From positions 1 through 49,069 of IMG/VR virus record IMGVR_UViG_3300034062_008749: DNA of 49,069 nucleotides. One strand, given 5' to 3'. Of this stretch, positions 16,812-43,609 are shown piece by piece (the first letter of the stretch is position 1; each line of letters starts with the position of its first letter). The notes under the pieces are model-generated. The model was given only the letters and a program-made list of their open reading frames with translations, was not told the DNA's origin and searched no databases. The position numbers and the translations under genes were made by a program. This DNA comes from a virus.

Positions 16812-19800
16812 TTAACTTGTAACTGAAACACCTGCAGGAGTTAATACGAATTCAATGTTAATGTATTCTAATGCTCTTGTAGGCGCAATTTGAATTTTAC
16901 CTTTCATTTCATTAGAACTAAACGCTTCATTAGAACGATCAAGAACTACTCTAAAATCAATAAGACCTCTTTCGTTTCTAATATTTGCAAGAATAGGATT
17001 AACTTTATTTTCAAACTTTCTTCTAACAGCTTCATCATTTTGATCAAAGAGAAGTGGTAATCCAACATCTTCAATCAATCTTTGTGTATAAAGCAGTAAG
17101 CGTCTTACGTTGATATCTGTCAATGCAGTATCAGCAAGTTGTAAAGTATTATTACCCCAAACATATACAGGAGATGAACCATCAGCTTGTTTAAAAGTTG
17201 CAAGGTAGTTCATTCTATTAGTATATAGAATATCCATTTCATCTTCTCTTAATTTCTTTCTTGCTTGTTTGAATTGAGTTCTCATTTCAACACCTGCAGG
17301 AGCAAACCAAGGTCTTCTTAATTTATCATTAAGAGCATATACACGCATTACTTCAGCAGTTGGAGGAATCCAAATAAACACATTGTTAACTTCATCAAGG
17401 AATTGACCCCAAGGGAAATATGTAGCAGCATAAGAAGTATCAAACAAATCTTGAATAGAACTTACAACATCATTTACTCTTAAAACCTGACCAGCATCAT
17501 CTGTATCTAATGTTGTAGGAATATAGAATGTATCACATCTCTCACTTTCGCACATTTCAATAGACTCTTCTACAAGATTTGAATGTTCGTTTGTATTAAT
17601 ACCAGGTGTCGCAAGAAGATTGATACGGAATTCATTTCTATTTCTCAAACTTCTGATACCTTCAAGATATGCATAGTAATCTGAATTAATAACAGTTTGT
17701 CCATCATTAATATTTTCAGAACTATAGATATCGAATGCACCTGAAGTTAAACCTTTTTGTCCTAAAGAACTTGTAACTGTATACAAATCTGTATTTGTTC
17801 TTCTTTTTCTGTGAATATCCCATCCATCAAAACCTCCAAAAGGAACCAAAGTGAATTTTCTTGCAATAAGTTGTTCATAAGAAGTTCCAGCCAAATCAGC
17901 TTCATTTTTGAAAGAATGGATACCTGTTTCAAATTGTACAACACCATAACCTTCAACTGTAGCAGAAGTTGCATTTGAATCCATATGGAATCCTTTGGTA
18001 GTTCCAGTCCAGAAAGGAACATCTGGATCAGCAGGTCTACCTTTATAATCAAAGAAATCTGCATCAAATCCCAAAACATCATTCAATCCAAGATAAACTT
18101 GTCTAACTCTATCTGTAGGGTTATATTGTGTTTTGTAGACAAGTAAAGGATTTTCCATACAATCATAATCACGAACAGGATAACCTTCAAAACCTGCAGG
18201 GAATGATTCATCCAAACAATCTGCAGCCAATTCAATCATAATGTACTTACTATTAAGAACATAGTTACCATCTACAGTACCAATACGTCTTCCGATGAAG
18301 TTATTATCTTGTTCTCTGAAAGTAAGTCTTGAATACGATTCAAGAATAACAGGTTTTTTATCTGTATCACCATAACCTCTAACTTGAAGGTCAAATGTTT
18401 TTGCATCAGGACGAATATTTGTGATAGAAACTTTAATGTCTGTATTGGCAGCATTACCATCACTAAATGTATGAATTCTAAATAATCTAAATACTCTATT
18501 ACCTCTTAATTCAGAAACAATCCAAGGAGTCATTGCACCTTGATATGGTTCTTTATAGTTATCTAAAGTATTGATATAACAAATAGAAGGTTTGATACAA
18601 TATACCAAATTGTTATCCAATAAATAATTGAAGCTATTTTCAAATAAATCTTCAACATACAGAGGATTATTTGTTCTACAACATGGGATAAAGTTACCAA
18701 AAACTCTTGCGATATAATTTGATTTACTCTTATCTAAAGATACATTGTATTCAAATGTACTACCATTTACTTTTGTACCTTTGATTAAAAAGTCATCAGT
18801 AGGATAAATCGTACCTCCATCTATAGATTCAATAGAAATTACATTACCTTCTACTTGGAAATTTAAAATTTCATCTCCATCATAACTTGCATAAGAACGC
18901 ATCAATGCTACAACCATGTTATCATATTGTGCATATGGCATACCTGAAAGTTCTGTAACAGTACCTGAAAAATCAAGTTGAATCAAGCCTGAAGGAATCT
19001 GTGAAACAATCTGTTGAGTTGTTCCTGATGTTACAGTATTAAAAATGATAGTAGTTCCTGTAGTAAGAGTATAATTGATACCATCTATAGTTTCACAATT
19101 ATAAACTGCAGTATTATCATTCAAATCGCATATTTTATATTCACCACCTGTGAAGACATCTCCATTAGGAAAGAAAATTGAACCATCTTCAATTGTAATT
19201 GAACCATCAACACCATGAGTGATAGTACCACCAACTAATGTCAAAAATCCAGAAGGAACAATTGTTAATTCATTAGTTGTAACATTTTGAACTACTACAG
19301 AATTTTCAACAGTAATAATGAATGTACTATCATAAGTCACAGTACCGCCCGAATAAATCACAAGACAATTTTGAACTTCAGAAGGAACCTGAATTGATTC
19401 CGAAACACTTGTTTCACCTGTAATACAAATATAAGTCTCAATTTTATTTGTTACAGTCATATTGAAACGAGCACCTACAAAAGTTTCACAATTTCCTAAG
19501 AAGGCATTTCCTACTAAAACTGTGTCACCTGTTAAAAGTGTGCTGCTTCCTAAAGAAGAATTAGCAATTTGACCTGCATCATAAAGGTCTTGAAGTGTAG
19601 AATTACTGAAACTTACACTTCCTACATTACCATTTACATAATTAATTGTAGCTGTGAATGATGAAGTACCAGTTATAGCAACCGTAGAAGGATCTAATGC
19701 TGCACCGAAGGAAATTCCCCAAGCATCACCTGCATCGTAACCTGTCAAACCAAGTACTCTCGAAACAAAGAGTTGGTCACTTTCTTTTAAGAATTGTTTT

Positions 19801-20042
19801 GCTATATAAACACCCTCATAAATAGGTTGTGAAGTTCCTTCGAACTTACACGCATTTGATTCACCAAAAACTTGAGTGAATAATTCGACATTATCGATTG
19901 AAATTGGTGTGAAAGCTCTACCTTTCAAAAATTCACCAGAGATACCCAAACTAGTTACACCGAAATTTCTTCCAGTTGAAAAGGTTAAATCTGTTTCTGT
20001 AAATTTTATTGAAGGAGCAAGATTAGGTTTACTTATCGCCAT
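16812..20042 (-). CDS. Contractile tail sheath protein, enlarged
   Basis: This 1076-aa protein is the tail sheath. The conserved core is visible near residues 720-735 (RKFTLVPFGGFDGWD), in VFIWIPPTAEVMRVYALND with RRPWFAPAGVE, and in the closing C-terminal domain (IRNERGLIDFRVVLD and ALEYINIEFVLTP). Family members are usually 480-660 aa. About 400 extra residues lie in the first half, mainly at about 130-390, rich in Thr, Ser, Val and Gly and predicted beta-structured, with Cys residues. Such insertions face outward in known sheaths. The sheath contracts on adsorption to drive the tube through the envelope. It is transcribed after the gp15-like gene and carries a plain A-rich leader. Confidence 0.9.
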   Translation of the reverse strand: MAISKPNLAPSIKFTETDLTFSTGRNFGVTSLGISGEFLKGRAFTPISIDNVELFTQVFGESNACKFEGTSQPIYEGVYIAKQFLKESDQLFVSRVLGLTGYDAGDAWGISFGAALDPSTVAITGTSSFTATINYVNGNVGSVSFSNSTLQDLYDAGQIANSSLGSSTLLTGDTVLVGNAFLGNCETFVGARFNMTVTNKIETYICITGETSVSESIQVPSEVQNCLVIYSGGTVTYDSTFIITVENSVVVQNVTTNELTIVPSGFLTLVGGTITHGVDGSITIEDGSIFFPNGDVFTGGEYKICDLNDNTAVYNCETIDGINYTLTTGTTIIFNTVTSGTTQQIVSQIPSGLIQLDFSGTVTELSGMPYAQYDNMVVALMRSYASYDGDEILNFQVEGNVISIESIDGGTIYPTDDFLIKGTKVNGSTFEYNVSLDKSKSNYIARVFGNFIPCCRTNNPLYVEDLFENSFNYLLDNNLVYCIKPSICYINTLDNYKEPYQGAMTPWIVSELRGNRVFRLFRIHTFSDGNAANTDIKVSITNIRPDAKTFDLQVRGYGDTDKKPVILESYSRLTFREQDNNFIGRRIGTVDGNYVLNSKYIMIELAADCLDESFPAGFEGYPVRDYDCMENPLLVYKTQYNPTDRVRQVYLGLNDVLGFDADFFDYKGRPADPDVPFWTGTTKGFHMDSNATSATVEGYGVVQFETGIHSFKNEADLAGTSYEQLIARKFTLVPFGGFDGWDIHRKRRTNTDLYTVTSSLGQKGLTSGAFDIYSSENINDGQTVINSDYYAYLEGIRSLRNRNEFRINLLATPGINTNEHSNLVEESIEMCESERCDTFYIPTTLDTDDAGQVLRVNDVVSSIQDLFDTSYAATYFPWGQFLDEVNNVFIWIPPTAEVMRVYALNDKLRRPWFAPAGVEMRTQFKQARKKLREDEMDILYTNRMNYLATFKQADGSSPVYVWGNNTLQLADTALTDINVRRLLLYTQRLIEDVGLPLLFDQNDEAVRRKFENKVNPILANIRNERGLIDFRVVLDRSNEAFSSNEMKGKIQIAPTRALEYINIEFVLTPAGVSVTS

Positions 20043-21110: not shown

Positions 21111-21622
21111 AATTCAAAAAAGCCCTCTCCTTTATTTATTGGTGTACATGTTATAGTTTTCCAAAAACTTTTATATCCTAAAAAAGTATTTTTATTTTGA
21201 TAAAATTTTTGTTGATCATTTGAAACTTCAAAAAATAAGACTAAAGTTTCACTAACCCTATATCCAATATAATCACCGTATGTTATATTTGCGTTATACA
21301 ATTCTAAATCTGAAATTAATAAACTTGCTGTCAAATTACCATATTCTTCATATCGAAGCATTGACTTATCCGAAGCATAGGCTTTATTTTCAGAAACTTC
21401 TAATTTAACTATTGCAGGTATTTCAATAGGTGAATTCAATTGAATTTCTTCCTTATAAGCTTCTCCATACAAATCGTCTATTTGTGATTTTTCTTTATTT
21501 ACTTTATAAAATATTATCTTTGTATTTAAAGAAGCCATATGTTCTCTTGAAGAATCAACATAGTATCTATATTCTTCTTCTGAAAAAAATTTGTTATTAT
21601 GATTTAATGGAGATATATTCAT
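21107..21622 (-). CDS. gp14-like neck protein
   Basis: This 171-aa protein resembles T4 gp14 in two places. NTKIIFYKVNKEKSQIDDLY with GEAYKEE corresponds to the gp14 CYYVPREYVSVDLIFGEDL region. ITYGDYIGYRVSETLVLFFE with LGYKSFWKTIT corresponds to its [20 protein letters not shown] region. gp14 forms part of the neck that connects head and tail. Here the protein is shorter than gp14 (256 aa). The gene is first in the minus-strand tail operon and overlaps the gp15-like gene by ATGA. A 47-nt divergent spacer separates it from the helicase gene. Confidence 0.5.
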   Translation of the reverse strand: MNISPLNHNNKFFSEEEYRYYVDSSREHMASLNTKIIFYKVNKEKSQIDDLYGEAYKEEIQLNSPIEIPAIVKLEVSENKAYASDKSMLRYEEYGNLTASLLISDLELYNANITYGDYIGYRVSETLVLFFEVSNDQQKFYQNKNTFLGYKSFWKTITCTPINKGEGFFEL

Positions 21623-21654
21623 ATGGAACTTATTATTTATTAATACTGTTTTCT

Positions 21655-21662
21655 TATAAATA
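21655..21662 (+). promoter_or_regulatory. TATAAATA box before the helicase gene
   Basis: An exact TATAAATA ends 7 nt before the helicase ATG at 21670, in the 47-nt spacer between divergent genes. On the other strand the neck gene has a related but inexact AATAAATAATAAG element before its start. Confidence 0.5.
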
Positions 21663-21669
21663 CTATATA

Positions 21670-23472
21670 ATGGAATATCCTAACTTTCAATTAAAAGAAT
21701 TACTTCAATATTCAGGTAATAACCCCTTTATAATTCAACTTGAGAAAAAATATCGTAATGATTTCAATTATGAATTATCTGAATTTGAAAACGAATACCT
21801 TCTAAAGAACTTTAAATTTTCACCTTTTGGATTCAAAGAACTTACTTTAGAAGTCGGTGAAAAAACTGAAAAAAGAATTCAACAAGATTTTAATTTAAAT
21901 AGACCTATAAAAAATGTAACTATCAATGCAGTTATAGGAGAAACCGATGAATGGTACCATGTTTCTTTTAAAAAGATTGGATCAAACCCTGTCTATTTTT
22001 GGTTACACAGAGAAGAGGTCGGAGATTTATATGAAAAAAATTATTCAAGACATTCTGTAAATTTTGAAGAGCTTAATTCAAAATTTTCCAAAGGAAATTT
22101 ATACGAACATCAAGAGAATGCTGTAAAATTTCTTTTGCACAACGAAAAATGCTTTCTGATGGATACAGTTGGAGCAGGCAAAACTTATTCTTCAATAGCT
22201 GCAACAATCGAAGGAAAATGTAGTAAAGTTCTTATAGTTTGTATTGCAGGTAAACAACTTGACTGGAAAAAAGAATTAAAACATTGGGGACAAGATTGCA
22301 AAATAATTTGGGGTGAATCTAATTGGATTGATGATGATGCAAGATATACAATCATTGGATGTGATGTATTAACAGCTTATCATGAAGAATCTAAAAAAGG
22401 AGTTAAAAAGGAAACACTTTATAGACCTTTATATGCTGAAGGATATGATTGTATAATAGTAGACGAAGTTCAAAAATTTAGAAATCCTAAAGCTAAAAAA
22501 AGCATTGTACTTCAAGATTTAACCTTACATCCAAATGTAAAATACGTTTGGGCTATGTCTGCTACAGCTATAGAAAAAAATGAAGAATTTTATGACATCT
22601 GTAGAAATTTAAATATTAGCATTAGCGATATTATATATTGTAAAAAGGATTATCATTTTTCAATGGTTTCTGCAAAATTTGAAGAATATGTAAAAAGATA
22701 TTGTGGAGCATTTTTACAAAATGGTAAAGCAGGAACTAAACCTTTCTTAAGAAGAACTGGAAATACAAATACTTATGAACTCTCCCAAAGAATCAGACAC
22801 ATCCAAAGAAGAAGAAGAACTGAAAAAATGGTTGATGGATTCCCTGATAAATTTATAAACGAGCTTTATTTTGAATTAACTCCGAGTCAGAAAAAAGAAG
22901 CCTCTGAATTATATGATAAATATATTGCTAAAAAGGGTAATAGGAGCGCAATGGAGGTTAAAGACTTAACCGAAACAATACTTTTAAGACAATTTTATGC
23001 AATTCAGAAGGTTGAACATACAATAAAATCAGTTCTTTCTTCTATAGAAGATGGTAAAACTTGTATAATTTTCACTAATTTTGTTGAAGAATATGAAAGA
23101 CTTAAGAAAAAATTAAGTAAATATGCAGTATGCGTTGATTCAGGTATGGATGGAAAAAGAAGACAGGCTGCAATTGATGAATTTATGAATAATCCAAATA
23201 AATTTGCGCTTATAGGGAACATAAAATCTATCGGAACAGGTTTAAATATTACAAAAGCAGATATAATTTACTTCAATTCGCCATCTTGGAGTTCTGATGA
23301 ACATGAACAAGCCGAAGGAAGAACCTGGAGAATTGGAAGAGTAGGTGATGTTGAAGTTTTTTATTGTTTATTTGATAGCACTCTTGAAGAAGATGTGTAT
23401 GCAGTATCAAATACCAAACAATTGAACAGAAATATTTTTTACGGAGAACATAATTTAAAAATAAATGAATAA
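21670..23472 (+). CDS. SNF2/UvsW-like ATP-dependent DNA helicase
   Basis: This 600-aa superfamily 2 helicase carries Walker A VGAGKT (Lys171), Walker B VDEVQ (Asp265-Glu266), motif III MSATA, motif V SIGTGLNITKAD and a SNF2-type motif VI (QAEGRTWRIGR, about residues 545-556). It probably remodels branched DNA or supports recombination-dependent replication, as UvsW does in T4; the motif VI form is closer to SNF2/SMARCAL1 enzymes. I chose the ATG at 21670 because longer in-frame starts run through the opposing neck gene, and a TATAAATA box lies just upstream. The stop overlaps the next start (TAATG). Confidence 0.85.
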   Translation: MEYPNFQLKELLQYSGNNPFIIQLEKKYRNDFNYELSEFENEYLLKNFKFSPFGFKELTLEVGEKTEKRIQQDFNLNRPIKNVTINAVIGETDEWYHVSFKKIGSNPVYFWLHREEVGDLYEKNYSRHSVNFEELNSKFSKGNLYEHQENAVKFLLHNEKCFLMDTVGAGKTYSSIAATIEGKCSKVLIVCIAGKQLDWKKELKHWGQDCKIIWGESNWIDDDARYTIIGCDVLTAYHEESKKGVKKETLYRPLYAEGYDCIIVDEVQKFRNPKAKKSIVLQDLTLHPNVKYVWAMSATAIEKNEEFYDICRNLNISISDIIYCKKDYHFSMVSAKFEEYVKRYCGAFLQNGKAGTKPFLRRTGNTNTYELSQRIRHIQRRRRTEKMVDGFPDKFINELYFELTPSQKKEASELYDKYIAKKGNRSAMEVKDLTETILLRQFYAIQKVEHTIKSVLSSIEDGKTCIIFTNFVEEYERLKKKLSKYAVCVDSGMDGKRRQAAIDEFMNNPNKFALIGNIKSIGTGLNITKADIIYFNSPSWSSDEHEQAEGRTWRIGRVGDVEVFYCLFDSTLEEDVYAVSNTKQLNRNIFYGEHNLKINE

Positions 23473-25185: not shown

Positions 25186-28100
25186 ATGCAGTTTAACATC
25201 TTCAAACCGAAAAAATCGAGAACAAAACCAGAAATAACTGAAAAGGTTATTGTAGACTTTCTAAATGGTTCTTATGAAAAAGATGTTTTTGGTTCAGAGC
25301 TTCAAGGAATAAGAACAATTGAAGTCTCAAGGGGTAATAACGATGTAGATATAATTTTTTGCAAAGCATTCCAAAAAGACAATCCAAGAATTACACATAA
25401 AGATGGATTGAAGCCATTTCTTTGGAGTAAGCAATTCAAAACATCAAATTTTTTCCGATATAATGTTATAACAGTTCCAAATAACAAGTATAGCGATTCA
25501 CATGTTATACTTCCAAATGGAATTCCAAAGGCTTTTGATGATACCACAAAAATCATCAAAAGAAACAGTGATGATTCTATAGTTGTAAGATATAAAGTTG
25601 AAGATGTTGAAGATTGGAAAAGAATAGTAAACGCCAAACAAAGAGAATACGGAATTGAAATTGAAGAACTGATAACTTCTTTTGATGATAAAAAAATAGA
25701 TAGAATTGAAAAAGGGTTCAAATATAAAATTTCAATTAAATCAAAAAAGACCGAAACAAAATTTAGTGATAACCCATTCTTCCAAAAGAAAATTACAGGT
25801 TGCTACAATAATCTTGTAGATTTCTTTAAAGAAGCAGGGCTTTCTGCAAGAGGGACAGTTTATTTAGATGAAACAAGATTCACAAATTTCTTCAACTATA
25901 TTAGCCAAGATTTAAACTCTGCAATATATTTTTACATTTCACTCTATAGATTTAGAGAATATTTCAATCCATTCACAAAGGATTCAGTAAACTTCGATGA
26001 AATAATCAAGTTCTATAAAAAACTGTATCCAGGCATAAGCTATAAGATTAATAAGACATTTATAAATGAACTTATCGAAAAAGATTTCAAAGCAGTTTAT
26101 GATACGCTTATCGATAGTGGTTTAGATTTAAAAGAAATTTTTAAAATTTCTTTGGATGAAAATAGATTGAATTTATACGTTGTCGATTGTTATACTTTTG
26201 ATGACAATATGGACAAACGCCCCTTACAAGATTATATTGTTTCTTTAGGTTATGATTTCACATATTCAATTCCATCACAAATTTATACTCTGAATCCTCT
26301 TGAACAATACATGATTCAAACTGGGAGAAGATTATTCAAAGGAATTGAGACATATGAAGATTTGAATGTTTTGATGATTGATATCGAGACTAAGGCTCAA
26401 AAAGGCAATGAAGAAATAGAAATTGCAGCATTGAAACCTGAATTGGGCAAAGTATTTCAGATTGGTATAAAATCTAATGATGGATTTGTAAAACTTCTTG
26501 AGGCAGAAACACCACAAGAAGAAGCCGATATTATTTCAGAAACTTATAGAATCATTGGGGATTACGATCCAGATCTTGTTTTAACTTTCAATGGAGAAGG
26601 ATTTGATTTTCCATTTATGGAAAAAAGATTGCAATTGCTTGGATGTGTTTCTGAGGAAGTTAATATGAAGGGTGAAAAAATAAAAGATTCATCGTTACAA
26701 TATATAAGAGAGCTAATGGCTCCATCTTATGAGAGATATGGCAAGGTTTTCAATTATCATATGTATAAAAAAATTGAAAATTCTGTTGTAAAAGTTGGAA
26801 ATAGCACTGAAAGATATACCCAGACTAAAATGTTTGGAAGAAATTTCTGTGATGTAATGTTTGCAGTTAAAAGAGCTGCAGAACAGGATAAATCTCTTCC
26901 AAACGCAAAATTAAAAGATAATATTAAGCATGCCAATTTAGCAAAGGCAAATCGTGTTTATGTCGATGGAGACCAGATTGGTAAAATTGGTTCAGATAAA
27001 AATCCTTATTACTTCAATAATGAAGATGGAACATACTTTTCATCAGTAAAAAGTATGTCAAAGGAAACAAAGTTTTCTTTCGATAGAATCCATGAGGGTG
27101 AAAAAGGATATTTTTACGGAAATATTAAAAATCTATATTTAAGATTCTCAAATGAAAATTTAGATGTTCCTCATTTAGATAAATGCTCCAACATTTTTAC
27201 ATTTGATGCAAATGAAAAATCTTTAAAGCTTTCATTTGAAAAAATGTATAGCGCACTTGTAGATTATGATGGAATAATTTCTACAGAAGGTTTTGGAGAT
27301 TTCTTAAGAAATGATAATGTTCTTTGGAAAAGTTTCATAGAATTAAAATTTAAAACTGTAGAACTTCTAAAGGATATAAAAGAAATCTATACTAAGTATA
27401 AGAATATTGATTTTGACAAATATAAAGTTGTAACAGGCAGCTATATAATTAAAAGATATCTTGAAGATGACTTGGATGAACCATATTTGTTAGATAAATT
27501 ATATTCTCAAGCCACATTTTCTCTTTCTAAATGGTTGCCAACATCTTATGAAAAAATATCTGTAATAGGTAATGCTACCGTATGGAAACTTATTTTATCT
27601 AATCTATCATATCTGAATTGTGTTGCGATTCCTGATTATGAAGAAAGTAGAAAGTATACTGGCGGATTATTAGGAATGGTTGATTCAGGGTATCACGAAG
27701 ATATTGTTAAAATTGACTTTTCATCTCAATATCCTGCGACATTCTTAGCTCATTGTCGAGTTCCAGATATAGATATAACCAATGTTTATAAAGCAGTTCT
27801 TGAATACGCTCTAAGAAGTAGACTTCATTATAAAGATATGAAGAATAAGGCTACTGATAGTGAAATGAAGCAGTTTTATGATAAAAAGCAGCTTCCTTTG
27901 AAAATTCTTATCAATAGTTTTTATGGAATGCTTGGAGCCCCTAATGTTTCACCATTCTGTCATATTGAATCTGCATGGCATATCACTTGTGCAAGCCGAC
28001 AAAATATGAGACATATGATCAAATATTTTGGAAAAGCAGATTTCAAAATTGTTTACTTCCATACAGATGGAGCAAACTTTGTGATTCCAAAAGGAATTGA

Positions 28101-29499
28101 GAATTATTCTTATGTAGGTACAGGTAAATCCTGGCTCACAGATAAAGATAAAGAATATAAGGGTATTGAAGCATTTGTAGCCGAATACAATGACAAATTT
28201 ATGATTGGCTATACTGGAGTTGCTATTGATGAATTTGCTGTATCTTGTATAAATTTTGCAAAAGGTAATTTTTCATATCTCAAAGAATCCAAAGGAAAAT
28301 ACAAAATTTCGCATGTCGGTGGAGGTCTTATCAATAAGAAGCAAAGCGGTTTTATTGTTGATTTTTACGAAAACAATCTTTTGGATTTGTTTTTGAATAA
28401 ACCTGTGAAATTCTTGGATTCTTATTACGGCTACATCAAAAAAATATATAATGGAGATTTGATTGCAAGAAAGATTGCAAGCAAGAGTAAAGTTAAAAAG
28501 ACAGTTGATGATTACAAAAAAGGTGTTGCAGAAGGAAGATACGCTAAACAGGCACATATGGAGCTTGCAATCAAAAATAATCTTCAAGTCGAAATTGGTG
28601 ATTGGATTTACTACATAAATGATAATGAAGAAGATGAATCACAAGATAGAAAAACTTTGAAAAATTCATTAGGATATTTTATAATAGGCGATATTGCAAA
28701 AACACCTATTGCGATCAAAAGACTTGAAAAATTTCTTAATGAAGATAGAGTGAAAATTAAAGAGGTTATTGAGAAATGTATTCAAGATGGAACATTTGTT
28801 TTCAATACAACTTTTGAGAAGTTTTCAGATATACATGGAGCTGTTAAGAAAACAAAGGTTTCTAAAGAAAAAGATTTGGATTCTTTATTTGAAGCAGATG
28901 CTATCAAGTTTAAAGCTAGAATTAAAAAGTCTAAAAAAGATGGAGATACAGCAGTTATAGATATTATTCTCGAAAAAGATGTACTTTACTGCACTTACAT
29001 TCCAAATGATAAGCTTGATGCAAAAGTTAAATATAATGCTAACAAGTATATCAATAAATTTAACAAAGTACTCGAACTTGTTTGGATTGTATTCCATCCA
29101 GATATTAGACATAAAATTCCTGCTCCAAACAAACATCTAAAAAGACCTGCAAATGAACGTGCATGGTTTACTGATGAAGAACTACAACTTGTTCATGGAT
29201 ATCCTATAGAAAACAAAGAGGATAAACAACAAGATATAAATGAACTGATGCTTATCACTGAAGATGAATACGAATTCTGGGAAATGACAAACCTTTCTCC
29301 AAATTCACCTTTCGATTACCAAGAAGTTTTCACGGACAAAATGTATGCATTCGATAATAATTCTTTAGAAATAAGAGAATTTGCAAACGAATCTAATTTA
29401 AATCCTAATGAAAAAATGTTTACAGGGGTGGAATTAATGAGGTTCATCGGAGAACAAGTCATAATAGACAACGAAAACCCTCCATATAGATTTGTTTAA
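25186..29499 (+). CDS. Family B DNA polymerase with 3'-5' exonuclease, enlarged
   Basis: This 1437-aa replicative polymerase shows ExoI DIE (Asp399, Glu401), ExoII FNGEGFDF (Asn469, Asp474) and ExoIII YLEDD (Tyr758, Asp762), so proofreading should be intact. The polymerase motifs are A at DFSSQYP (Asp844), B at KILINSFYG (Lys906-Gly914) and C at FHTDGA (His959, Asp961). Motif C normally reads DTD; here the first Asp is His, while the second, metal-binding Asp is kept. T4 gp43 is 898 aa. The extra length lies in the N-terminal 390 residues, in a long stretch between ExoII and ExoIII, and in a long C-terminus. It starts 45 nt past a terminator, so it has its own promoter, and a bidirectional terminator follows. 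Confidence 0.9.
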   Translation: MQFNIFKPKKSRTKPEITEKVIVDFLNGSYEKDVFGSELQGIRTIEVSRGNNDVDIIFCKAFQKDNPRITHKDGLKPFLWSKQFKTSNFFRYNVITVPNNKYSDSHVILPNGIPKAFDDTTKIIKRNSDDSIVVRYKVEDVEDWKRIVNAKQREYGIEIEELITSFDDKKIDRIEKGFKYKISIKSKKTETKFSDNPFFQKKITGCYNNLVDFFKEAGLSARGTVYLDETRFTNFFNYISQDLNSAIYFYISLYRFREYFNPFTKDSVNFDEIIKFYKKLYPGISYKINKTFINELIEKDFKAVYDTLIDSGLDLKEIFKISLDENRLNLYVVDCYTFDDNMDKRPLQDYIVSLGYDFTYSIPSQIYTLNPLEQYMIQTGRRLFKGIETYEDLNVLMIDIETKAQKGNEEIEIAALKPELGKVFQIGIKSNDGFVKLLEAETPQEEADIISETYRIIGDYDPDLVLTFNGEGFDFPFMEKRLQLLGCVSEEVNMKGEKIKDSSLQYIRELMAPSYERYGKVFNYHMYKKIENSVVKVGNSTERYTQTKMFGRNFCDVMFAVKRAAEQDKSLPNAKLKDNIKHANLAKANRVYVDGDQIGKIGSDKNPYYFNNEDGTYFSSVKSMSKETKFSFDRIHEGEKGYFYGNIKNLYLRFSNENLDVPHLDKCSNIFTFDANEKSLKLSFEKMYSALVDYDGIISTEGFGDFLRNDNVLWKSFIELKFKTVELLKDIKEIYTKYKNIDFDKYKVVTGSYIIKRYLEDDLDEPYLLDKLYSQATFSLSKWLPTSYEKISVIGNATVWKLILSNLSYLNCVAIPDYEESRKYTGGLLGMVDSGYHEDIVKIDFSSQYPATFLAHCRVPDIDITNVYKAVLEYALRSRLHYKDMKNKATDSEMKQFYDKKQLPLKILINSFYGMLGAPNVSPFCHIESAWHITCASRQNMRHMIKYFGKADFKIVYFHTDGANFVIPKGIENYSYVGTGKSWLTDKDKEYKGIEAFVAEYNDKFMIGYTGVAIDEFAVSCINFAKGNFSYLKESKGKYKISHVGGGLINKKQSGFIVDFYENNLLDLFLNKPVKFLDSYYGYIKKIYNGDLIARKIASKSKVKKTVDDYKKGVAEGRYAKQAHMELAIKNNLQVEIGDWIYYINDNEEDESQDRKTLKNSLGYFIIGDIAKTPIAIKRLEKFLNEDRVKIKEVIEKCIQDGTFVFNTTFEKFSDIHGAVKKTKVSKEKDLDSLFEADAIKFKARIKKSKKDGDTAVIDIILEKDVLYCTYIPNDKLDAKVKYNANKYINKFNKVLELVWIVFHPDIRHKIPAPNKHLKRPANERAWFTDEELQLVHGYPIENKEDKQQDINELMLITEDEYEFWEMTNLSPNSPFDYQEVFTDKMYAFDNNSLEIREFANESNLNPNEKMFTGVELMRFIGEQVIIDNENPPYRFV

Positions 29500-35591: not shown

Positions 35592-36749
35592 ATGTCAAAA
35601 GTTAAAGTATTAGTAGTTGAAGTTAAAAATGCTGGAGTAGGCAAATTTAGATTTAGTGATCCGCATATAACATTGCAAAAAAACCATAAGGATGATTTTA
35701 TTGTCGATATTATGGATAATCCTCCTATTGAAGATAAAGATTTCATTTCATTTTATGACATCATTGTATTACAAGGAACGGTTGTTATGAATGACAACCT
35801 TTTTAAAATTCTTGAGAATCTTAAAAAGCAAGGTCTTAAAATTGTTTTAGATATTGATGATTATTGGAGATTGAGTCCAAGCCACGCAATGTATAAAAAA
35901 ATGGAAGAGACTTATAAAACATTGGTTGAAAGATTAAAAATTGCAGATTTGATTACTACGACTACAGTTAATCTTGCAAGAGAACTTTTGAGATTTAATA
36001 AAAATGTTAAAGTTCTTGAGAATGCTATAAACCCTGAAGAAGATCAATTCATTAGTAATCCTATTGAATCAAATAAAGTTAGAATTGGATGGGCTGGTGG
36101 TTCAAGCCACTTAGAAGATTTAAAGTGCCTTGGAGGTTTATCCAATCATATTCATAATAAGCATTATAATGAAGTACAATTAATCATGGCAGGATTTGAT
36201 AACAAGATCCGAAACATACAAACAGGTGAAATAACTACCACCAAAAGACCCGAACTTTGGATGCAGTGTGAAATGTTGTTTACCAACAACTACAAAATGA
36301 AAGATGATAATTATATACACTATCTTTTACATCCAAGAGAAGAAGAGTATGAAAATATTCAAGAACAATCTTATAAAAGAGTTTGGAGTAAACCCATTCA
36401 TTCTTACGCAAAATGTTATAATGAGATTGATATAGCTTTGGCACCTCTGAAAATTAATACTTTTAATACTATGAAATCTCAGTTAAAAGTTCTTGAAGCA
36501 GGATTCCATAAGAAACCTCTGATTGCAAGTGAAATTTATCCATACCAACTTGATATAGTTCATGGTAAAAACGGATTTCTCGTTCCAGAAAAAAGAAATC
36601 ATAAGGAATGGTATGAATATTCAAAAGCATTGATTAGAAATGAAAATATGAGAAAAGAAATGGGTGAAGCATTGTATGAAACAGTTAAAGATAAGTATGA
36701 TCTAAATAATGTGACACGCAAAAGAGCATCACTTTATAAAAATCTTTAG
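35592..36749 (+). CDS. GT-B fold glycosyltransferase (GT4-like)
   Basis: This 385-aa enzyme has the two Rossmann halves of a GT-B transferase. KIVLDIDDYW near residue 95 lies in the first half. The second half contains KVRIGWAGGSSHLED near 165, a DIALAPL strand near 280 and KSQLKVLEAGFHKKPLIAS near 297-315, which includes the Glu that contacts the nucleotide-sugar ribose in GT4 enzymes. No membrane segment is present. It probably transfers a sugar from a nucleotide donor. It is separated from the main glycosyltransferase cluster by about 4 kb of nucleotide-metabolism genes. The acceptor is unknown. Confidence 0.8.
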   Translation: MSKVKVLVVEVKNAGVGKFRFSDPHITLQKNHKDDFIVDIMDNPPIEDKDFISFYDIIVLQGTVVMNDNLFKILENLKKQGLKIVLDIDDYWRLSPSHAMYKKMEETYKTLVERLKIADLITTTTVNLARELLRFNKNVKVLENAINPEEDQFISNPIESNKVRIGWAGGSSHLEDLKCLGGLSNHIHNKHYNEVQLIMAGFDNKIRNIQTGEITTTKRPELWMQCEMLFTNNYKMKDDNYIHYLLHPREEEYENIQEQSYKRVWSKPIHSYAKCYNEIDIALAPLKINTFNTMKSQLKVLEAGFHKKPLIASEIYPYQLDIVHGKNGFLVPEKRNHKEWYEYSKALIRNENMRKEMGEALYETVKDKYDLNNVTRKRASLYKNL

Positions 36750-37379: not shown

Positions 37380-37973
37380 ATGACTGACAGATTTTATATA
37401 AACGATCTTTGGCAAATATTCGATGAAGCGGATTTCTTGATAACAGGAAGCCCAAAGGGTGTCGGATTCACAACATTCATAACTGAATGGGCTGCTGAAA
37501 ATATGTTTTTGAAAGAAGATTATTCAATATTGATTCTCACCAAAGACAGAAAAACTCAAATCGATATAATTTTCAAAATTCTTGAGAACTATAAATATTA
37601 TCATGAGAATGGTGTTGAAAGAGATGGCAATATCTTATATTCTCTGAAGAAAAATTTATCTGTCACTGGAGTGTTTTGTTATGACGAAATAAATATAAAC
37701 GAAATTTATGATTTTTATGATTGCATCATTATTGATTCAGATGACTATTCTGAACGCTTATATAAAAGTATAGACCATATGATGGGGATAACATCAAAAT
37801 TAATATTCAATACTTACGATGTACCCCAAAGTATATTTTACAACTACCAAGATGCACCAAAAATTGTTTTGGCATCTGAACATAATAAAAAATTGAAAAA
37901 AAAACTTAGTAATTCTTATTCAGAAATTGTAAACTTTGATCGAATTTTAGATGGCAAATTTGAAGAATATTAA
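37380..37973 (+). CDS. Degenerate P-loop NTPase-like protein
   Basis: A 197-aa protein with a single nucleotide-binding-like core. LITGSPKGVGFTTFITEW occupies the place of a Walker A loop but lacks the GK[ST] lysine, LILTKDRKTQIDIIF resembles the next strand and helix, and CIIIDSDDY resembles Walker B. The layout recalls the ATPase half of phage terminases or recombinases, but the protein is too short and the loop is altered, so hydrolysis is doubtful. It overlaps the next gene by 23 bases. Confidence 0.5.
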   Translation: MTDRFYINDLWQIFDEADFLITGSPKGVGFTTFITEWAAENMFLKEDYSILILTKDRKTQIDIIFKILENYKYYHENGVERDGNILYSLKKNLSVTGVFCYDEININEIYDFYDCIIIDSDDYSERLYKSIDHMMGITSKLIFNTYDVPQSIFYNYQDAPKIVLASEHNKKLKKKLSNSYSEIVNFDRILDGKFEEY

Positions 37974-38988
37974 AGAAACCTTAAATCTTGGAGATTTAGC
38001 AATTGTTCCTGCTATTTTATCAGATATTGATAGTAGAAACGATGTTATGACAACTTATACAAATGGTCAATCACCATTTTTTGTGGCTCCAATGGATACA
38101 GTCCTTAACAAGGAAAATTATAAACTTTTTATGGAGTCAGGTTTAAATATCTGTCTTCCAAGAGGAATATATCTCGAAGAGAACACTCCAAATATATTTG
38201 AAAGTTACTCTTTAGATGAGTTTATTCAAAAATTTATAAAGAATCAAGAGCAGCCTAAACATTGGTATATTCATATTGATATAGCAAATGGTCACATGTC
38301 AAAACTTTTCAATGCTTGTGCTGATGCAAAAGATATATATGGAAAGGATTTGATTCTTATGATTGGTAATATTGCAAATCCAGAAACATATGCAAGTTTT
38401 GCTGAAATTGGTGTGGATTATTGCAAATTTGGTATAGGAATGGGAGCAGTATGCACCACCACAACTCATACAGGTGTTCATTATCCAATGGCATCTTTAC
38501 TTATGGAAGCAAGAATGATCAAAGAAAAAGCAGGTTATTCTACTAATATCATTGCAGATGGAGGTATTTCTTCAACAGCAGATGTAAATATAGCTTTAGC
38601 ATGTGGTGCAGACTTCGTTATGATGGGAAGTATTTTCAACAAAACAAATGAAGCTTGCGGACAAGCATATCTTTTAAACCGAATTCCAATTCCAAATATA
38701 AGTGTAGCATTTTTCAAAAGACTTGGTTTTAAAGTCTATAGAAAATATAGGGGAATGAGTACTACAGAAGTACAAAAATCCTGGAGAAAAAAAATACTAC
38801 GTCCTAGTGAAGGTATACACAAAAGAAACGAAGTTCAATTTACTTTAGAAGAATTAATTTCTAATTTAAATCACAGACTTGCAACAGCTATGAGTTATAC
38901 TGGAGATAAGTATCTGGAAACTTTTGTTGCAGGTGAAACTGAACTTGTTAAAAAAACAACAGATACAAATAATCGAGTAAACAAATGA
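37951..38988 (+). CDS. guaC: GMP reductase-like enzyme (IMPDH/GMPR family)
   Basis: This 345-aa TIM-barrel protein has FFVAPMDTVLN near residue 45, HIDIANGHM near 108, IADGGISSTADVNIALACGADFVMMGSIF near 198-225 and the Cys loop FGIGMGAVCTTTTHTGVHYP with catalytic Cys168. The TGVxYP form and absence of CBS domains favour GMP reductase (NADPH-dependent GMP to IMP) over IMP dehydrogenase; the length equals that of GuaC. Family members usually read GIGPGSxCTTR, so Met and Ala replacements and loss of Arg are unusual. It is co-transcribed with dUTPase, suggesting adjustment of purine pools during replication. Confidence 0.75.
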   Translation: MANLKNIKETLNLGDLAIVPAILSDIDSRNDVMTTYTNGQSPFFVAPMDTVLNKENYKLFMESGLNICLPRGIYLEENTPNIFESYSLDEFIQKFIKNQEQPKHWYIHIDIANGHMSKLFNACADAKDIYGKDLILMIGNIANPETYASFAEIGVDYCKFGIGMGAVCTTTTHTGVHYPMASLLMEARMIKEKAGYSTNIIADGGISSTADVNIALACGADFVMMGSIFNKTNEACGQAYLLNRIPIPNISVAFFKRLGFKVYRKYRGMSTTEVQKSWRKKILRPSEGIHKRNEVQFTLEELISNLNHRLATAMSYTGDKYLETFVAGETELVKKTTDTNNRVNK

Positions 38989-39538: not shown

Positions 39539-40516
39539 ATGCCACAAAATTTCAAAACTGAATTATCAAATTTCAAAAGAGAGTATTCTATTCCAAGTTT
39601 AAGTTTAAGTTTAGTTCAGTATAACGATGACCTTTCAAAAGGAAAATATTTGTTCTCCTTTAAAGAAGGAGACATTTCAAATGATACCCCATTTTTTGCC
39701 CAAAGTGTAAGCAAATTACATGTAAAAATTTTGATATTGAAATTGATAGAATCAGGTGCCATGAATTTGAAAGATAAAATTTTTAAATGGATTGATCCTG
39801 TTAGAAATGGAAAAAATATTATCAATTTTTATGATTGGAATAAATGGGCTGAAATTACAATAGAAGATTGTTTGAAGCATAAAAGTGGCATACCTGATTT
39901 TCTTAATGAAATACCAGATTTTGCGTATTATAATGATAACGCACCGCAAAACTTCAATTGGGTGGATATATTAAGAGCTTTGGGAAAATATCCACTTCAT
40001 TTTAATCCTGGTTCTGATGAATCTTACAGTAACAGCAATTTTTATATTTTGTTATCAATAGCAGAATTGATAACAAAGACAAAATGGAATGTTCTTTTGA
40101 AAGAGGAAGTTTTAGAACCTGCAGGATGTTCAAACAGCGCAGCTGTAGATTTTCAAGATTATAGCATGTGGAATATGATTGGGTATCTTTATAAAGACAA
40201 TACAAAAGAAGTTGTTAGAGCTGATGAATGGTCAAATGATTTTGCAAAAGGACTAATTTATACATCTATAAATGATTTACATAAATTCTCAAGAGCTTTA
40301 TTGACTAATAAGATAATCAAAAGAAGTACATTGTATCATTTTTTTGATAACAAAACAAATCCTGTCGGAGGATTGGGAGCAGGGGATACAGGAACAATTG
40401 TCTATTATATGTTTGATTTTGAATCCAAAAAAAGTATGGTAATAGTTTCAAACTTGTTTGCTGAAGAAATTATGGATAAAATTATAGAATTAGGTGATAA
40501 AGCTTTAAATATGTAA
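39539..40516 (+). CDS. Beta-lactamase-fold serine hydrolase
   Basis: This 325-aa protein of the class C beta-lactamase / penicillin-binding-like family has SxxK as SVSK (Ser56, Lys59) and the second motif YSN (Tyr163-Asn165). ITIEDCLKHKSGIPDF and PGSDESYSNSNFYILLSIAE are typical surrounding segments. The third motif, normally KTG or HxG, appears as GAGDTG and lacks Lys or His, so the substrate probably differs from penicillins. There is no signal peptide, so it acts in the cytoplasm or in the virion. It has its own transcription unit between two terminators. Possible roles are esterase, amidase or peptidoglycan-linked hydrolase. Confidence 0.8.
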   Translation: MPQNFKTELSNFKREYSIPSLSLSLVQYNDDLSKGKYLFSFKEGDISNDTPFFAQSVSKLHVKILILKLIESGAMNLKDKIFKWIDPVRNGKNIINFYDWNKWAEITIEDCLKHKSGIPDFLNEIPDFAYYNDNAPQNFNWVDILRALGKYPLHFNPGSDESYSNSNFYILLSIAELITKTKWNVLLKEEVLEPAGCSNSAAVDFQDYSMWNMIGYLYKDNTKEVVRADEWSNDFAKGLIYTSINDLHKFSRALLTNKIIKRSTLYHFFDNKTNPVGGLGAGDTGTIVYYMFDFESKKSMVIVSNLFAEEIMDKIIELGDKALNM

Positions 40517-40586: not shown

Positions 40587-42080
40587 ATGATATCTATTTT
40601 CTTTTCAACTCGTGAGGAGTCAAATGAATATAAAGAAGTTCTTCAGAAGACTTGCACATTACCAGATGTTGAAATTATACAATTTGTAAACAAAAATACA
40701 CACTCTCTTTCGGAAGCATATAATACTGCTCTTGAACAATCAAAATATCCAATATTAGTCTGTGTTCACGATGACATCCATTTAGAAAAAGGTTGGGATA
40801 AAATCATTTATGACCATTTTAATTCATCAGATTTCGGTATTTTAGGAATGGCTGGAACTACTGAAATAGATGAAACAGGAATGTGGTGGAGAAAAAGACA
40901 TTTGATGGTAGGCGAAGTTGCGCACCGAGATAAGCAGGGAAAATGGACTGAAATGAGTTACAGTTACAAAGCTCCTGGCAAAATACATCAAGTTGCTTGT
41001 ATCGATGGGTTATTTATGGCGATCCATAAAGAAAGAATAAAATCAAACTTTGATGAGGAATTCAAAGGCTTCCATTTTTACGACATACCCTGTTGCCTTA
41101 GAAATTCAATTGAAGGAGTAAAAATAGGTGTAATTTTCGATTTTAAAATCAAACATGAATCCATTGGAATGGTTTCAGAAGATTGGAATAAAAGCAGGGA
41201 ATTATTTACTCTAAAATATAAAGATAATCTTCCTTTAGAAATTAATCAATTTCCCTTTGTAAGCAATAAAGATGTTAATATTAAGAATGAACCATCTTTA
41301 GCTATAATAATTCATTCTAAAGACAATTTTGAACGTTTAAAGGAATGTATTGAAAGTCTTAAGAAGACAAATTATTCAAATTACCAGATTTATATTGCGG
41401 ATACAGGTTCAAATGAAGAAAATATTGCTTCTATTGAAGAATATGTGTATTATGATAAAAAACTTAACCTTTTATATTATGATTACAGTCATTATGCAAG
41501 TGTTAACAATGATATAGTATTCAATTATATTGACAAGGGAACTGAATTAGTTTTATTTTGTGATAGTGGTATTGAAATGATTAATGATGCAATTTCAATC
41601 ATGGTTAGCGAATGTCTTAAGAATAAAAAAGAAATTGGAACAGTAGGGTGTAGATTACATTTCAAAGACAATAAAATCCAACATGGAGGCATTGTCTGTT
41701 ATATGAATAAAGAAAACCGAATGGGATTCACTAATCAAGGAATAAGAACAGTTTTTGGAGCCTCTTTCAAAAAAGAAGAAAATATTTTTGGCAATACTAA
41801 AAACTTTTTTATGATTAGAAAGGCTTTGTTTATAGGAATTGGAGGATTTGATACAAGTCCTGAAGAAAGTTATGAAGACATTCTTTTGAGTATAGAATGT
41901 ATTTTAAGGAATTATAAGAATATTTATGTGGGAGAAGCTGCTTGTTTTACTAATGAAATTTCAGATAAAAAAGACGTTGAAAAATTAAGAAATGAACAGA
42001 AAGTAGCTATAAATCTTATTGCCCCTAAATTCTCAAAATACCAAAAGAAACTTAAAAACTTCATAGTACAGTTAGGATGA
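40587..42080 (+). CDS. Two-domain glycosyltransferase (GT2-like)
   Basis: This 497-aa protein has two GT-A units. The first (about 1-210) has SLSEAYNTALEQSKYPILV and CVHDDIHLEKGWD with the metal-binding Asp-Asp. The second (about 230-497) starts SLAIIIHSKDNFERLKECI, has IADTGSNEENI, and LVLFCDSGIEM where a DxD-like motif is expected but only one Asp is clear. GGFDTSPEESYEDILLSIE near 430 fits the catalytic-base region (ED). It begins the glycan cluster after a terminator. Fusion of two transferases suggests sequential or repeating sugar addition. The acceptor is unknown. Confidence 0.75.
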   Translation: MISIFFSTREESNEYKEVLQKTCTLPDVEIIQFVNKNTHSLSEAYNTALEQSKYPILVCVHDDIHLEKGWDKIIYDHFNSSDFGILGMAGTTEIDETGMWWRKRHLMVGEVAHRDKQGKWTEMSYSYKAPGKIHQVACIDGLFMAIHKERIKSNFDEEFKGFHFYDIPCCLRNSIEGVKIGVIFDFKIKHESIGMVSEDWNKSRELFTLKYKDNLPLEINQFPFVSNKDVNIKNEPSLAIIIHSKDNFERLKECIESLKKTNYSNYQIYIADTGSNEENIASIEEYVYYDKKLNLLYYDYSHYASVNNDIVFNYIDKGTELVLFCDSGIEMINDAISIMVSECLKNKKEIGTVGCRLHFKDNKIQHGGIVCYMNKENRMGFTNQGIRTVFGASFKKEENIFGNTKNFFMIRKALFIGIGGFDTSPEESYEDILLSIECILRNYKNIYVGEAACFTNEISDKKDVEKLRNEQKVAINLIAPKFSKYQKKLKNFIVQLG

Positions 42081-43609
42081 AACATATTCAAAAGCTTACA
42101 ACCAGAAATGGTAATAAAGGTACCATCATAAAAGCACACCAAAGTGCAATAAAACCTGTACAATCAAAAGCAAAAATTGTGATAAATAAAGTTGAAATAC
42201 CTATACCTCTGATAAACATTCTAACAAGAACCTCTGGGAGACCTTTAGCTTTCAAAAGATGTCATGAATCTGTAAAAAATCAAACATATAAGAATGTAAG
42301 ACATATTGTTTCTATTGATAATTTGCAAGATGAAGAATATGTGAAGGAATGTGGTGTAGATTATTTCTTTATGGATAAGAATGCAATTTCTAAGGAGCCA
42401 GATATTGCAGATCCAAAGACTGGTCCACGCTTCATATACAATCTATATCTCAACAAACTTATTGAAAAAGTAAACGATGGATGGATCATAATATTAGATG
42501 ACGATGATTATCTCACAGATAACAATGTATTACAAAAGGTGGCAAATATTGCCAAAAGTAATACGGATATGCTTCTTTGGCAGATGAAATATCCAAATGG
42601 AGGACTTTTGCCTTCTTTGCAGGAACTTGGCAAACCTCCAAGATTGGCAAGGATCGGTATGCCCTGTTTTGCAATTCATAGTGGTATTGCTAAAACTATC
42701 AAATTTGATGGATGGAAATGTGGAGATTTTAGGTTTATTCAGAAAGTGTGGGCAAAAACTGTAGATAAAAGAGTTGTTAAAGAAGCATTGGTTTCTTTAG
42801 GAAGTATAGGGCTCGGACAAAGAAATGATATTGGCGCAAATATTAATTCACTTAACAGAGTAAGTAATAATCCTTCGGAAATTAGCGGTAATGCTATTGT
42901 AAAATCATTAAAGCATAATATAGATATAAAAAAAGATTATTATGATTTTATAGTAATAACTTCCTCATATAAAAGAAATGAAATGTTAAAAGGTATTTTA
43001 GAAAAAATTACCACCCAGCAAACAGATTATTCTTATAAAATTATAGTATTGAATGATGGAAATAATATTCAAGAATTTAATGAAATCTTTAATAATTTTG
43101 AAAATATAACTATTCTTCATAATGAAAAAAATAATGGTAAATTTTATTATTGGAAAACAATTACAACTCTTTTAAAAGAAGTTGATAAATTCAATTACAA
43201 ATATTTAATCCAATTAGATGATGACCATGACCCTGTAGATACATTTTTAAACAAAATACATTCTCATTTTAAGTCAAACGGAGAAAAATCTATTTTAAAA
43301 ATGGTGGTTAATATAAATTACAATCAAAAAAGGTGGGGGTATTCTCATTGGGTTGATGGAGGATCAGTTTACCCAAAATTTGTATTTGATGATATTGGAT
43401 ATTATATTAATGAAATAAATATGAATAGATGGAAAAATAATTCACATTTAGGAAGCGGAGTCTGGCAACAAGTAAGTCAAAGGATAAATTCAAAAAAAAT
43501 AAAAGTATTTATAGCTGATAAATCATTTGCAAATCATTTAGGATATAAGGATTCTGTGATGAATACTGAAGAAAGAAAAAAAAATAATTTAAAAACTATA
43601 AATTTATAA
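42077..43609 (+). CDS. Two-domain GT2-type glycosyltransferase with internal composition step
   Basis: A 510-aa protein with an N-terminal basic stretch and two GT-A units. The first has PLINILTRTSGRPLAFKRC, VKNQTYKNVRHIVSID and WIIILDDDDYLTDNNVL. The second, from about residue 293, has FIVITSSYKRNEMLKGIL, KIIVLNDG and YLIQLDDDHDPVDTF. Both carry the Asp-rich metal-binding motif. The ATGA overlap couples it to the previous gene. G+C falls sharply in the gene at about 42930, between the two units, as if the second half and the genes after it were acquired separately. Confidence 0.75.
   Translation: MKHIQKLTTRNGNKGTIIKAHQSAIKPVQSKAKIVINKVEIPIPLINILTRTSGRPLAFKRCHESVKNQTYKNVRHIVSIDNLQDEEYVKECGVDYFFMDKNAISKEPDIADPKTGPRFIYNLYLNKLIEKVNDGWIIILDDDDYLTDNNVLQKVANIAKSNTDMLLWQMKYPNGGLLPSLQELGKPPRLARIGMPCFAIHSGIAKTIKFDGWKCGDFRFIQKVWAKTVDKRVVKEALVSLGSIGLGQRNDIGANINSLNRVSNNPSEISGNAIVKSLKHNIDIKKDYYDFIVITSSYKRNEMLKGILEKITTQQTDYSYKIIVLNDGNNIQEFNEIFNNFENITILHNEKNNGKFYYWKTITTLLKEVDKFNYKYLIQLDDDHDPVDTFLNKIHSHFKSNGEKSILKMVVNINYNQKRWGYSHWVDGGSVYPKFVFDDIGYYINEINMNRWKNNSHLGSGVWQQVSQRINSKKIKVFIADKSFANHLGYKDSVMNTEERKKNNLKTINL

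Follow-up and report, generated by a model that had tools for sequence, protein, structure and literature searches.

The YxDTDS motif (motif C) is a signature of family B DNA polymerases. Its first aspartate has been called essential (PMC2527604). In the virus record IMGVR_UViG_3300034062_008749 of IMG/VR, of which we analyzed the whole stretch of 49,069 nucleotides (referred to below as the window), the polymerase has a histidine at this place, His959. We asked whether the change is real, whether it comes alone, and what it would mean for the enzyme.

The window polymerase (Table 1) matches the Pfam families PF00136 (E value of 1.4e-12) and PF03104 (E value of 3.9e-11), both over the cutoff, as well as PHROG 262, annotated as DNA polymerase (E value of 2.1e-29). 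The catalytic residues of the family are all present, namely, the motif A Asp, the K...NSxYG of motif B, and the second Asp of motif C. The stretch Y758-LED-D762 is the one we take to be ExoIII. The N-terminal part of about 370 residues (25186-26295) and the long interval between ExoII and ExoIII (about 26610-27450) have no Pfam match of note; counting these extras, the protein is 1.8 times as long as the enzyme of Salinibacter phage M8CRM-1. Two features of the family are missing: YxDTDS with both Asp residues, which reads YFHTDG in the window, and the Lys of the KxY (or KKRY) motif, which reads KGNF. The initial annotation had described ExoI to ExoIII and motifs A and B as intact, and this is right, but its list was incomplete and left out the altered KxY motif. 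YFHTDG is taken as a variant and not as exclusion from family B, because groups lacking the first Asp are kept within the family (PMC7544198). An AlphaFold model of residues 330-1200 (25-row alignment; mean pLDDT of 62.1, pTM of 0.54) has motif C in the expected hairpin (pLDDT of about 82), with a pLDDT of 45 for the KxY block. Foldseek ranked the Pfu and KOD polymerases first for this model (best hit Pfu, E value of 8.9e-23, TM score of about 0.4). The predicted structure, which is of modest confidence, supports the family B fold and not the side-chain geometry.

Table 1. Coordinates of the polymerase gene and its motifs in the window
Feature	Position	Strand	Basis
Family B DNA polymerase, 1437 aa	25186-29499	+	ORF with ATG start, no internal stop
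ExoI, D399-I-E-T	26380-26391	+	Sequence
ExoII, N469-GEGF-D474	26590-26607	+	Sequence
ExoIII, R757-Y758-LED-D762	27454-27471	+	Aligns with YSMED stretch of Pfu-type polymerases
Motif A, D844-FSSQYP	27715-27735	+	Alignment; Asp844 is the expected motif A metal ligand
Motif B, K906-ILINSFYG	27901-27927	+	Alignment
Ser922, eight residues past motif B	27949-27951	+	Alignment column comparison
Motif C, Y957-F-H959-T-D961-G962	28054-28071	+	Codons TAC TTC CAT ACA GAT GGA
His959, replacing first Asp of motif C	28060-28062	+	Alignment, codon CAT
Asp1015, conserved acidic position before KxY	28228-28230	+	Alignment
Degenerate KxY/KKRY motif, K1026-G1027-N1028-F1029	28261-28272	+	Alignment
Gly1027, in place of the Lys that pairs with the first Asp	28264-28266	+	Alignment

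When the protein was compared with solved structures by phmmer, YFHTDG of the window aligned with DTDG of Pfu-type polymerases, and His959 shares its column with the first Asp of DTD when 77 sequences are aligned. Both results rule out another Asp pair as the true motif C, and the original observation that His replaces the first Asp while Asp961 is kept was confirmed. The string FHTDGANF is also found in three close homologues, L001 (99% identical, on a separate contig), L002 (on a contig of 184.5 kb; best segment 58% identical), and L027 (on a contig of 98.6 kb), and is therefore not a sequencing error. All three close homologues found are HTD, and DTD is seen in the more distant Salinibacter and Nostoc phages. 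The final Gly of the motif, which had also been pointed out as an oddity, is none, as DTDG is ordinary in these phages and in Pfu-type enzymes.

Between the window and L001, the polymerase gene has 77.0 synonymous and 22.0 nonsynonymous changes (dN/dS of 0.065); toward L002, synonymous sites are saturated. The 184.5-kb record of L002 contains a single family B match, together with a match to a DnaB-type helicase that exceeds the cutoff. A second polymerase doing the replication was considered and rejected, as neither this record nor the window, both possibly fragments, has a match to a family A or C polymerase. Six records were searched for family B: five have one polymerase locus each (in one case in two open frames), and the sixth, which was reached through a non-polymerase pattern match, has none; all of them may be fragments. 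The view that the enzyme is probably active is supported by purifying selection, by the relatives with the same motif, and by the sole family B match in the 184.5-kb relative. A search for related loci gave nothing beyond the two contigs already found, and a protein scan of genome contigs (hosts and prophages) matched 33 stretches, none of them a relative of the window polymerase.

Near the polymerase are genes for a tail sheath protein and an SNF2/DEAD-type helicase (16812-20042 and 21430-23472), and the sheath protein indicates that the virus is probably a contractile-tailed phage. The window also has glycosyltransferase genes (35592-36749, 40587-42080, and 42077-43609) and a gene for an IMP dehydrogenase/GMP reductase domain protein (37951-38988; PF00478, E value of 9.2e-35), which is unusual cargo for a phage. 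The protein encoded at 39539-40516 has a beta-lactamase fold (PF00144, E value of 7.8e-25) and also hits a PHROG whose members are minor tail proteins with lysin activity; it seems more plausible that this is a serine peptidase or an enzyme acting on the cell wall than a resistance determinant.

We investigated how common HTD is by pattern scans. Scanning IMG/VR for FYG followed at fixed spacing by YxHTD returned 62 environmental stretches, and the 60 new ones are all in-frame polymerases with NAFYG or ASFYG and YGHTDS, as are L056 and L059. The same scan with Asp returned 102 stretches; among the 80 listed were 61 new loci, 57 of them polymerases by HMM. With looser spacing and fixed codons, the His scan gave 31 stretches, of which 16 were polymerases by reading, and added a group of proteins of about 745 amino acids (745-aa group, L033-L050), mostly with Y-[VI]-HTDG. 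Spacing wider by one residue gave 9 stretches: three of the window clade, L033, L210-L212, whose polymerase frames do not contain both motifs, and two non-polymerases. An HTD pattern scan of genome contigs gave 15 stretches with one HTD polymerase, L213. This is a YGHTDS viral-type enzyme on a 43-kb contig of a MAG labelled Altibacter, probably a virus contig binned with a bacterium. Among 17 named phage polymerases read, NTDG was found in 2 (crAss cr110_1 and Pseudomonas JG054) and DTD in the other 15. HTD is common and present in at least two lineages, and other polymerases use Asn, Ile, or Ala at this position. L032, L057, and L210 (perhaps also L211 and L212) form a further HTD subgroup with KNRN for KKRY, in which the polymerase is seemingly divided between two open frames, with the break just ahead of motif C; this could reflect a split gene, an intron, or a frameshift. 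The 31-kb contig IMGVR_UViG_3300037195_000659 encodes a pair of distinct HTD polymerases that belong to the 745-aa group, L039 and L048, which are either paralogues or the mark of a chimeric contig.

Comparing 37 His rows and 37 Asp rows column by column, we found one further position that splits the two sets, the second Lys of KKRY. It is Lys in all 35 Asp rows with a letter there (2 have gaps), and no His row agrees: the window clade and the 745-aa group have Gly there, and the YGHTDS group has Asn. Asn is also the residue in the two NTDG rows of this first alignment. In the window clade, Phe also stands in place of the Tyr of KxY, so that more than one contact is altered. An Arg eight residues after motif B was suspected to be a third strict partner, since 29 of the 37 viral DTD rows and none of the 37 HTD rows have Arg in the column of Ser922; the suspicion weakened with the many archaeal DTD rows lacking this Arg. 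A compensating acid was likewise discarded, as none of the columns listed is acidic in all HTD rows. The column that comes closest, that of window residue 986, is acidic in most of them, but one row of the window clade has Thr there, and 15 of the 37 DTD rows are acidic at this position as well.

The comparison was then made on 186 aligned rows, with the window-clade copies L001, L004, L008-L012, L016, and L017 dropped before counting and 11 rows gapped at either site, which leaves 175 scorable rows. Written as first Asp position/Lys position, these comprise D/K (82), H/N (65), H/G (14), N/N (10), and one each of I/N, A/N, I/M, and N/D, the last being the interrupted cr3_1. Where the first Asp is present, Lys is found in 82/82 rows; where it is absent, in 0/93. 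With kinship taken into account, the 175 rows form 63 D and 40 non-D clusters at 70% identity and 47 D and 18 non-D clusters at 50%. An extra 57 DTD viral polymerases gave 56 Lys and 1 gap, so the pooled count is 0 exceptions in 231 scorable rows (175, including the interrupted cr3_1, plus 56). No pattern used for searching contained the Lys, so the searches did not select for it.

The pair rule was set down beforehand and then applied to 11 named phages, with agreement in 10 of 10 scorable cases: both DTD enzymes keep Lys, and all eight scorable NTD enzymes have Asn (cr3_1 was excluded from scoring). The polymerase frame of the crAss-like cr3_1 (L229, 1226-4591) stops at KxY and is followed by a homing endonuclease gene and then a second polymerase piece, so the insertion sits at the coupled active-site position. 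Thirty genomes of one archaeal phylum provided 43 loci. The first Asp is present in 38 of these, all 38 with Lys; three with Ile, Ala, and Ile pair with Met, Asn, and Asn, respectively, and two (both from one contig end) are unscorable. As 12 archaeal regions were hand-chosen, partly for a PolB2-like look, the archaeal proportions carry no meaning.

To interpret the pair, we take Pfu Asp541 to be the first Asp of motif C, KOD D404 to be the motif A Asp, and KOD Asp542 to be the second motif C Asp. In Pfu, Lys593 of KKRY reaches into the minor groove and bonds the penultimate primer base; a salt bridge to Asp541 sets its orientation, and the equivalent Lys of RB69 and phi29 makes the same minor-groove contact (PMC3733885). 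In the ternary structures of KOD and 9N, the ligands of metals A and B are D404 and D542 (PMC5718519), and the first Asp is described as pointing away from the active center (PMC8764526). In our alignment, the motif A column has Asp in 169 of 175 scorable rows and gaps in the remaining 6, the second Asp of motif C is kept in 175 of 175, and the Asp1015 column is Glu or Asp in 174 of 175. Asp1015 may be equivalent to the third-metal acid of KOD or RB69.

In KOD-type structures, the first Asp is then no ligand of metals A and B; it holds the KxY Lys by the salt bridge. In the window virus and its relatives, the pair appears to have been exchanged as a unit, Asp for His959 and Lys for Gly1027. 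Loss of the Asp alone would leave the Lys unpaired, while with both lost the charge would stay balanced. With Asp844 and Asp961 kept, the polymerase is presumably active, with its proofreading motifs in place. Gly1027 may leave room beside His959, whose side chain could itself make the minor-groove contact. Such a swap would act on the sensing and extension of the primer end. Dpo2, which lacks the first Asp, has activity equal to that of the replicase Dpo1 and readily extends mismatches, and its authors suggest that a His may take over (PMC8764526). As this paper and a second one point in opposite ways on mismatch extension, the effect in HTD enzymes could go in either direction.

Because the partner Lys contacts the primer minor groove and is lost together with the first Asp, primer-end handling is probably a better reading than metal binding. 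We consider it probable from these comparisons that the window encodes an active family B replicase in which the Asp-Lys primer-end sensor is replaced by His-Gly, with primer-end effects likelier than metal effects. The initial annotation had instead proposed altered metal or nucleotide handling, which could mean that the enzyme prefers Mn2+ or some other metal, or modified nucleotides. His is a good transition-metal ligand, the titles of cited papers name the first Asp of YxDTDS as a metal ligand in phi29 and the YxDTDS region as a site of metal-specific catalysis in Pol alpha, and we also counted the IMP dehydrogenase/GMP reductase-like gene of the window for this proposal. We nevertheless find it unlikely, and as worded it is unsupported: metals A and B sit on D404 and D542 in KOD and 9N and not on the first Asp (PMC5718519), their ligands are kept in the window, and the partner residue that has changed sits by the minor groove of the primer and not at the metals (PMC3733885). 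A modified-purine pathway was rejected, since the adenylosuccinate synthetase family PF00709 has no match in the window or two relatives, three records that may be fragments.

How often the pair has changed was examined on two trees, one with 61 of the 77 aligned rows and the columns of motif C removed, and one of 77 rows without both motifs (18 of the original 77 left out, 6 phage and 12 archaeal rows added). His needs three changes in the 61-row tree, two of them forced by well-supported branches, and the HTD rows fall into three clades. A single clade for all HTD rows was rejected by the AU test (P = 0.003); the window group and the 745-aa group as one clade gave a P value of 0.38, and they stand apart in the best tree. 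The window group and the YGHTDS group are parted by a well-supported branch (99/98 in the 61-row tree and 100/98 in the 77-row tree). In the 77-row tree, each trait changes six times, and in all of the four pairs on well-supported branches the two change in step (sign test P = 0.125). Six of the eight NTD phages of the prediction were placed on the tree; they group in a single clade with the two rows from which the rule was drawn and thus add no independent events. The coupling is without exception here but rests on few independent events (4 well supported), which limits the statistics.

The coupling could therefore be a by-product of shared ancestry, with a few ancient lineages having lost both residues and neither loss compensating the other. 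The four well-supported pairs with their sign test, the three HTD clades, and the unrejected joint clade of the window and 745-aa groups all fit such a history. Yet we regard it as rather improbable, since the 231 scorable rows hold no exception, the archaeal sister rows L281 and L282 are unlike at the two sites (D with K in the former, A with N in the latter), and the Asp and the Lys touch in the Pfu crystal structure (PMC3733885).

A further alternative is a lesion-bypass or mismatch-extending polymerase like the archaeal PolB2 (Dpo2) in place of the main replicase. Dpo2 is likewise without the first Asp and extends mismatches (PMC8764526), and three archaeal rows that look PolB2-like have neither the first Asp nor the KxY Lys. 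PolB2 enzymes, however, are without proofreading (PMC8764526), whereas the window has ExoI to ExoIII, and the family B match is the sole one, with none for family A or C, in the 184.5-kb relative (possibly a fragment), which makes this role very unlikely. That the polymerase is inactivated, decaying, or mis-sequenced can be practically dismissed, although the changed residue is reported as important for activity (PMC8764526, citing others), because four separate contigs, including the window, have the same motif with a dN/dS of 0.065 and both metal Asp residues kept, and a single scan found 62 HTD stretches in another polymerase group.

Returning to the primer-end reading, the joint loss of Asp and Lys suggests a natural swap of the sensor of the growing DNA end and not a broken or odd-metal enzyme. 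A wider proposal, which we put forward tentatively, is that the first Asp and the KxY Lys form one exchangeable module sensing the primer minor groove, which would occur naturally in at least three states, Asp-Lys, Asn-Asn, and His-Gly/Asn. The His imidazole would read the groove directly, convergent with the motif C His of family A, and would set the extension of mismatched or unusual primer ends. If this is true, the HTD enzymes would be a widespread, uncharacterized functional class of viral replicases. Natural viral polymerases of several lineages do without this Asp, and all that were scored obey the simple two-residue rule, which advises caution before enzymes lacking this Asp are called inactivated. 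The HTD pair offers a direct route to test the role of the first Asp, at the metal or at the primer end, and HTD enzymes are candidate polymerases whose mismatch extension may differ from that of standard enzymes. In the literature searched, we found no assay of any HTD enzyme. The pairing of the first Asp with the KxY Lys was in no title or opening lines among the matches listed, which is no proof of novelty. The string YGHTDS was not found in the text searched, and the figures of PMC7544198 might show HTD in the Magro group.

Among known systems, the named phages matching the whole protein at an E value of 1e-5 are eleven records, ten of Salinibacter phages and one of a Nostoc phage. The Salinibacter phages M8CRM-1 and SRUTV-1 and Nostoc phage N1 have been placed in group G3 within the EpsilonN-like clade (PMC7544198). 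Their polymerases share with the window the exonuclease-polymerase order and the DTDG-type ending, and that of M8CRM-1 has 26.3% identity over 44% of the query. They differ in keeping the first Asp and the KxY Lys and in length (631-801 versus 1437 amino acids), and the path to the window on the tree is long, at 3.5 changes per column. The Glu of G3 motif C is present in the Salinibacter phages where the window has Tyr957, and the Nostoc phages, also G3, are without it too.

The YGHTDS polymerases (L056, L059, and L150-L209) are like the window in having His for the first Asp, in the loss of the KxY Lys, and in the kept metal Asp residues, but they have Asn and not Gly at the Lys position and form a separate clade. 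Haloviruses are their nearest named relatives, and Magro polymerases have been described as similar to viral B5 (PMC7544198), so these environmental contigs are probably magrovirus-like. In the polymerases of crAss-like phages, Queuovirinae, and other NTDG phages, the first Asp and the KxY Lys are also lost together, with the difference that both positions are Asn; crAss-like and HelPrimPolB enzymes have been noted to differ profoundly in MotifC and KxY (PMC7544198). The same paper lists B2/G2, primer-independent polymerases, and SITDG as groups without the first Asp and also has a Magro group.

Archaeal PolB2/Dpo2 and bacterial G2 lack the first Asp like the window, and Dpo2 is active (PMC8764526), while the PolB2 type has been called apparently inactivated (PMC2527604). 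The KxY Lys is missing in the three PolB2-like archaeal rows without the first Asp, and the fourth row of their clade, L281, keeps both. PolB2/Dpo2 differ from the window in an HxxxD motif, in the loss of proofreading, and in a lesion-bypass role. Family A polymerases have a motif C with Gln and His, and this His affects mismatch extension (PMC4011760); they differ in family and geometry, and His959 may have a similar role. Taken with these systems, the window polymerase is ordinary as a family B member and unusual in its active site; our preferred interpretation is that it represents one state of a primer-end module in which Asp and Lys are coupled.
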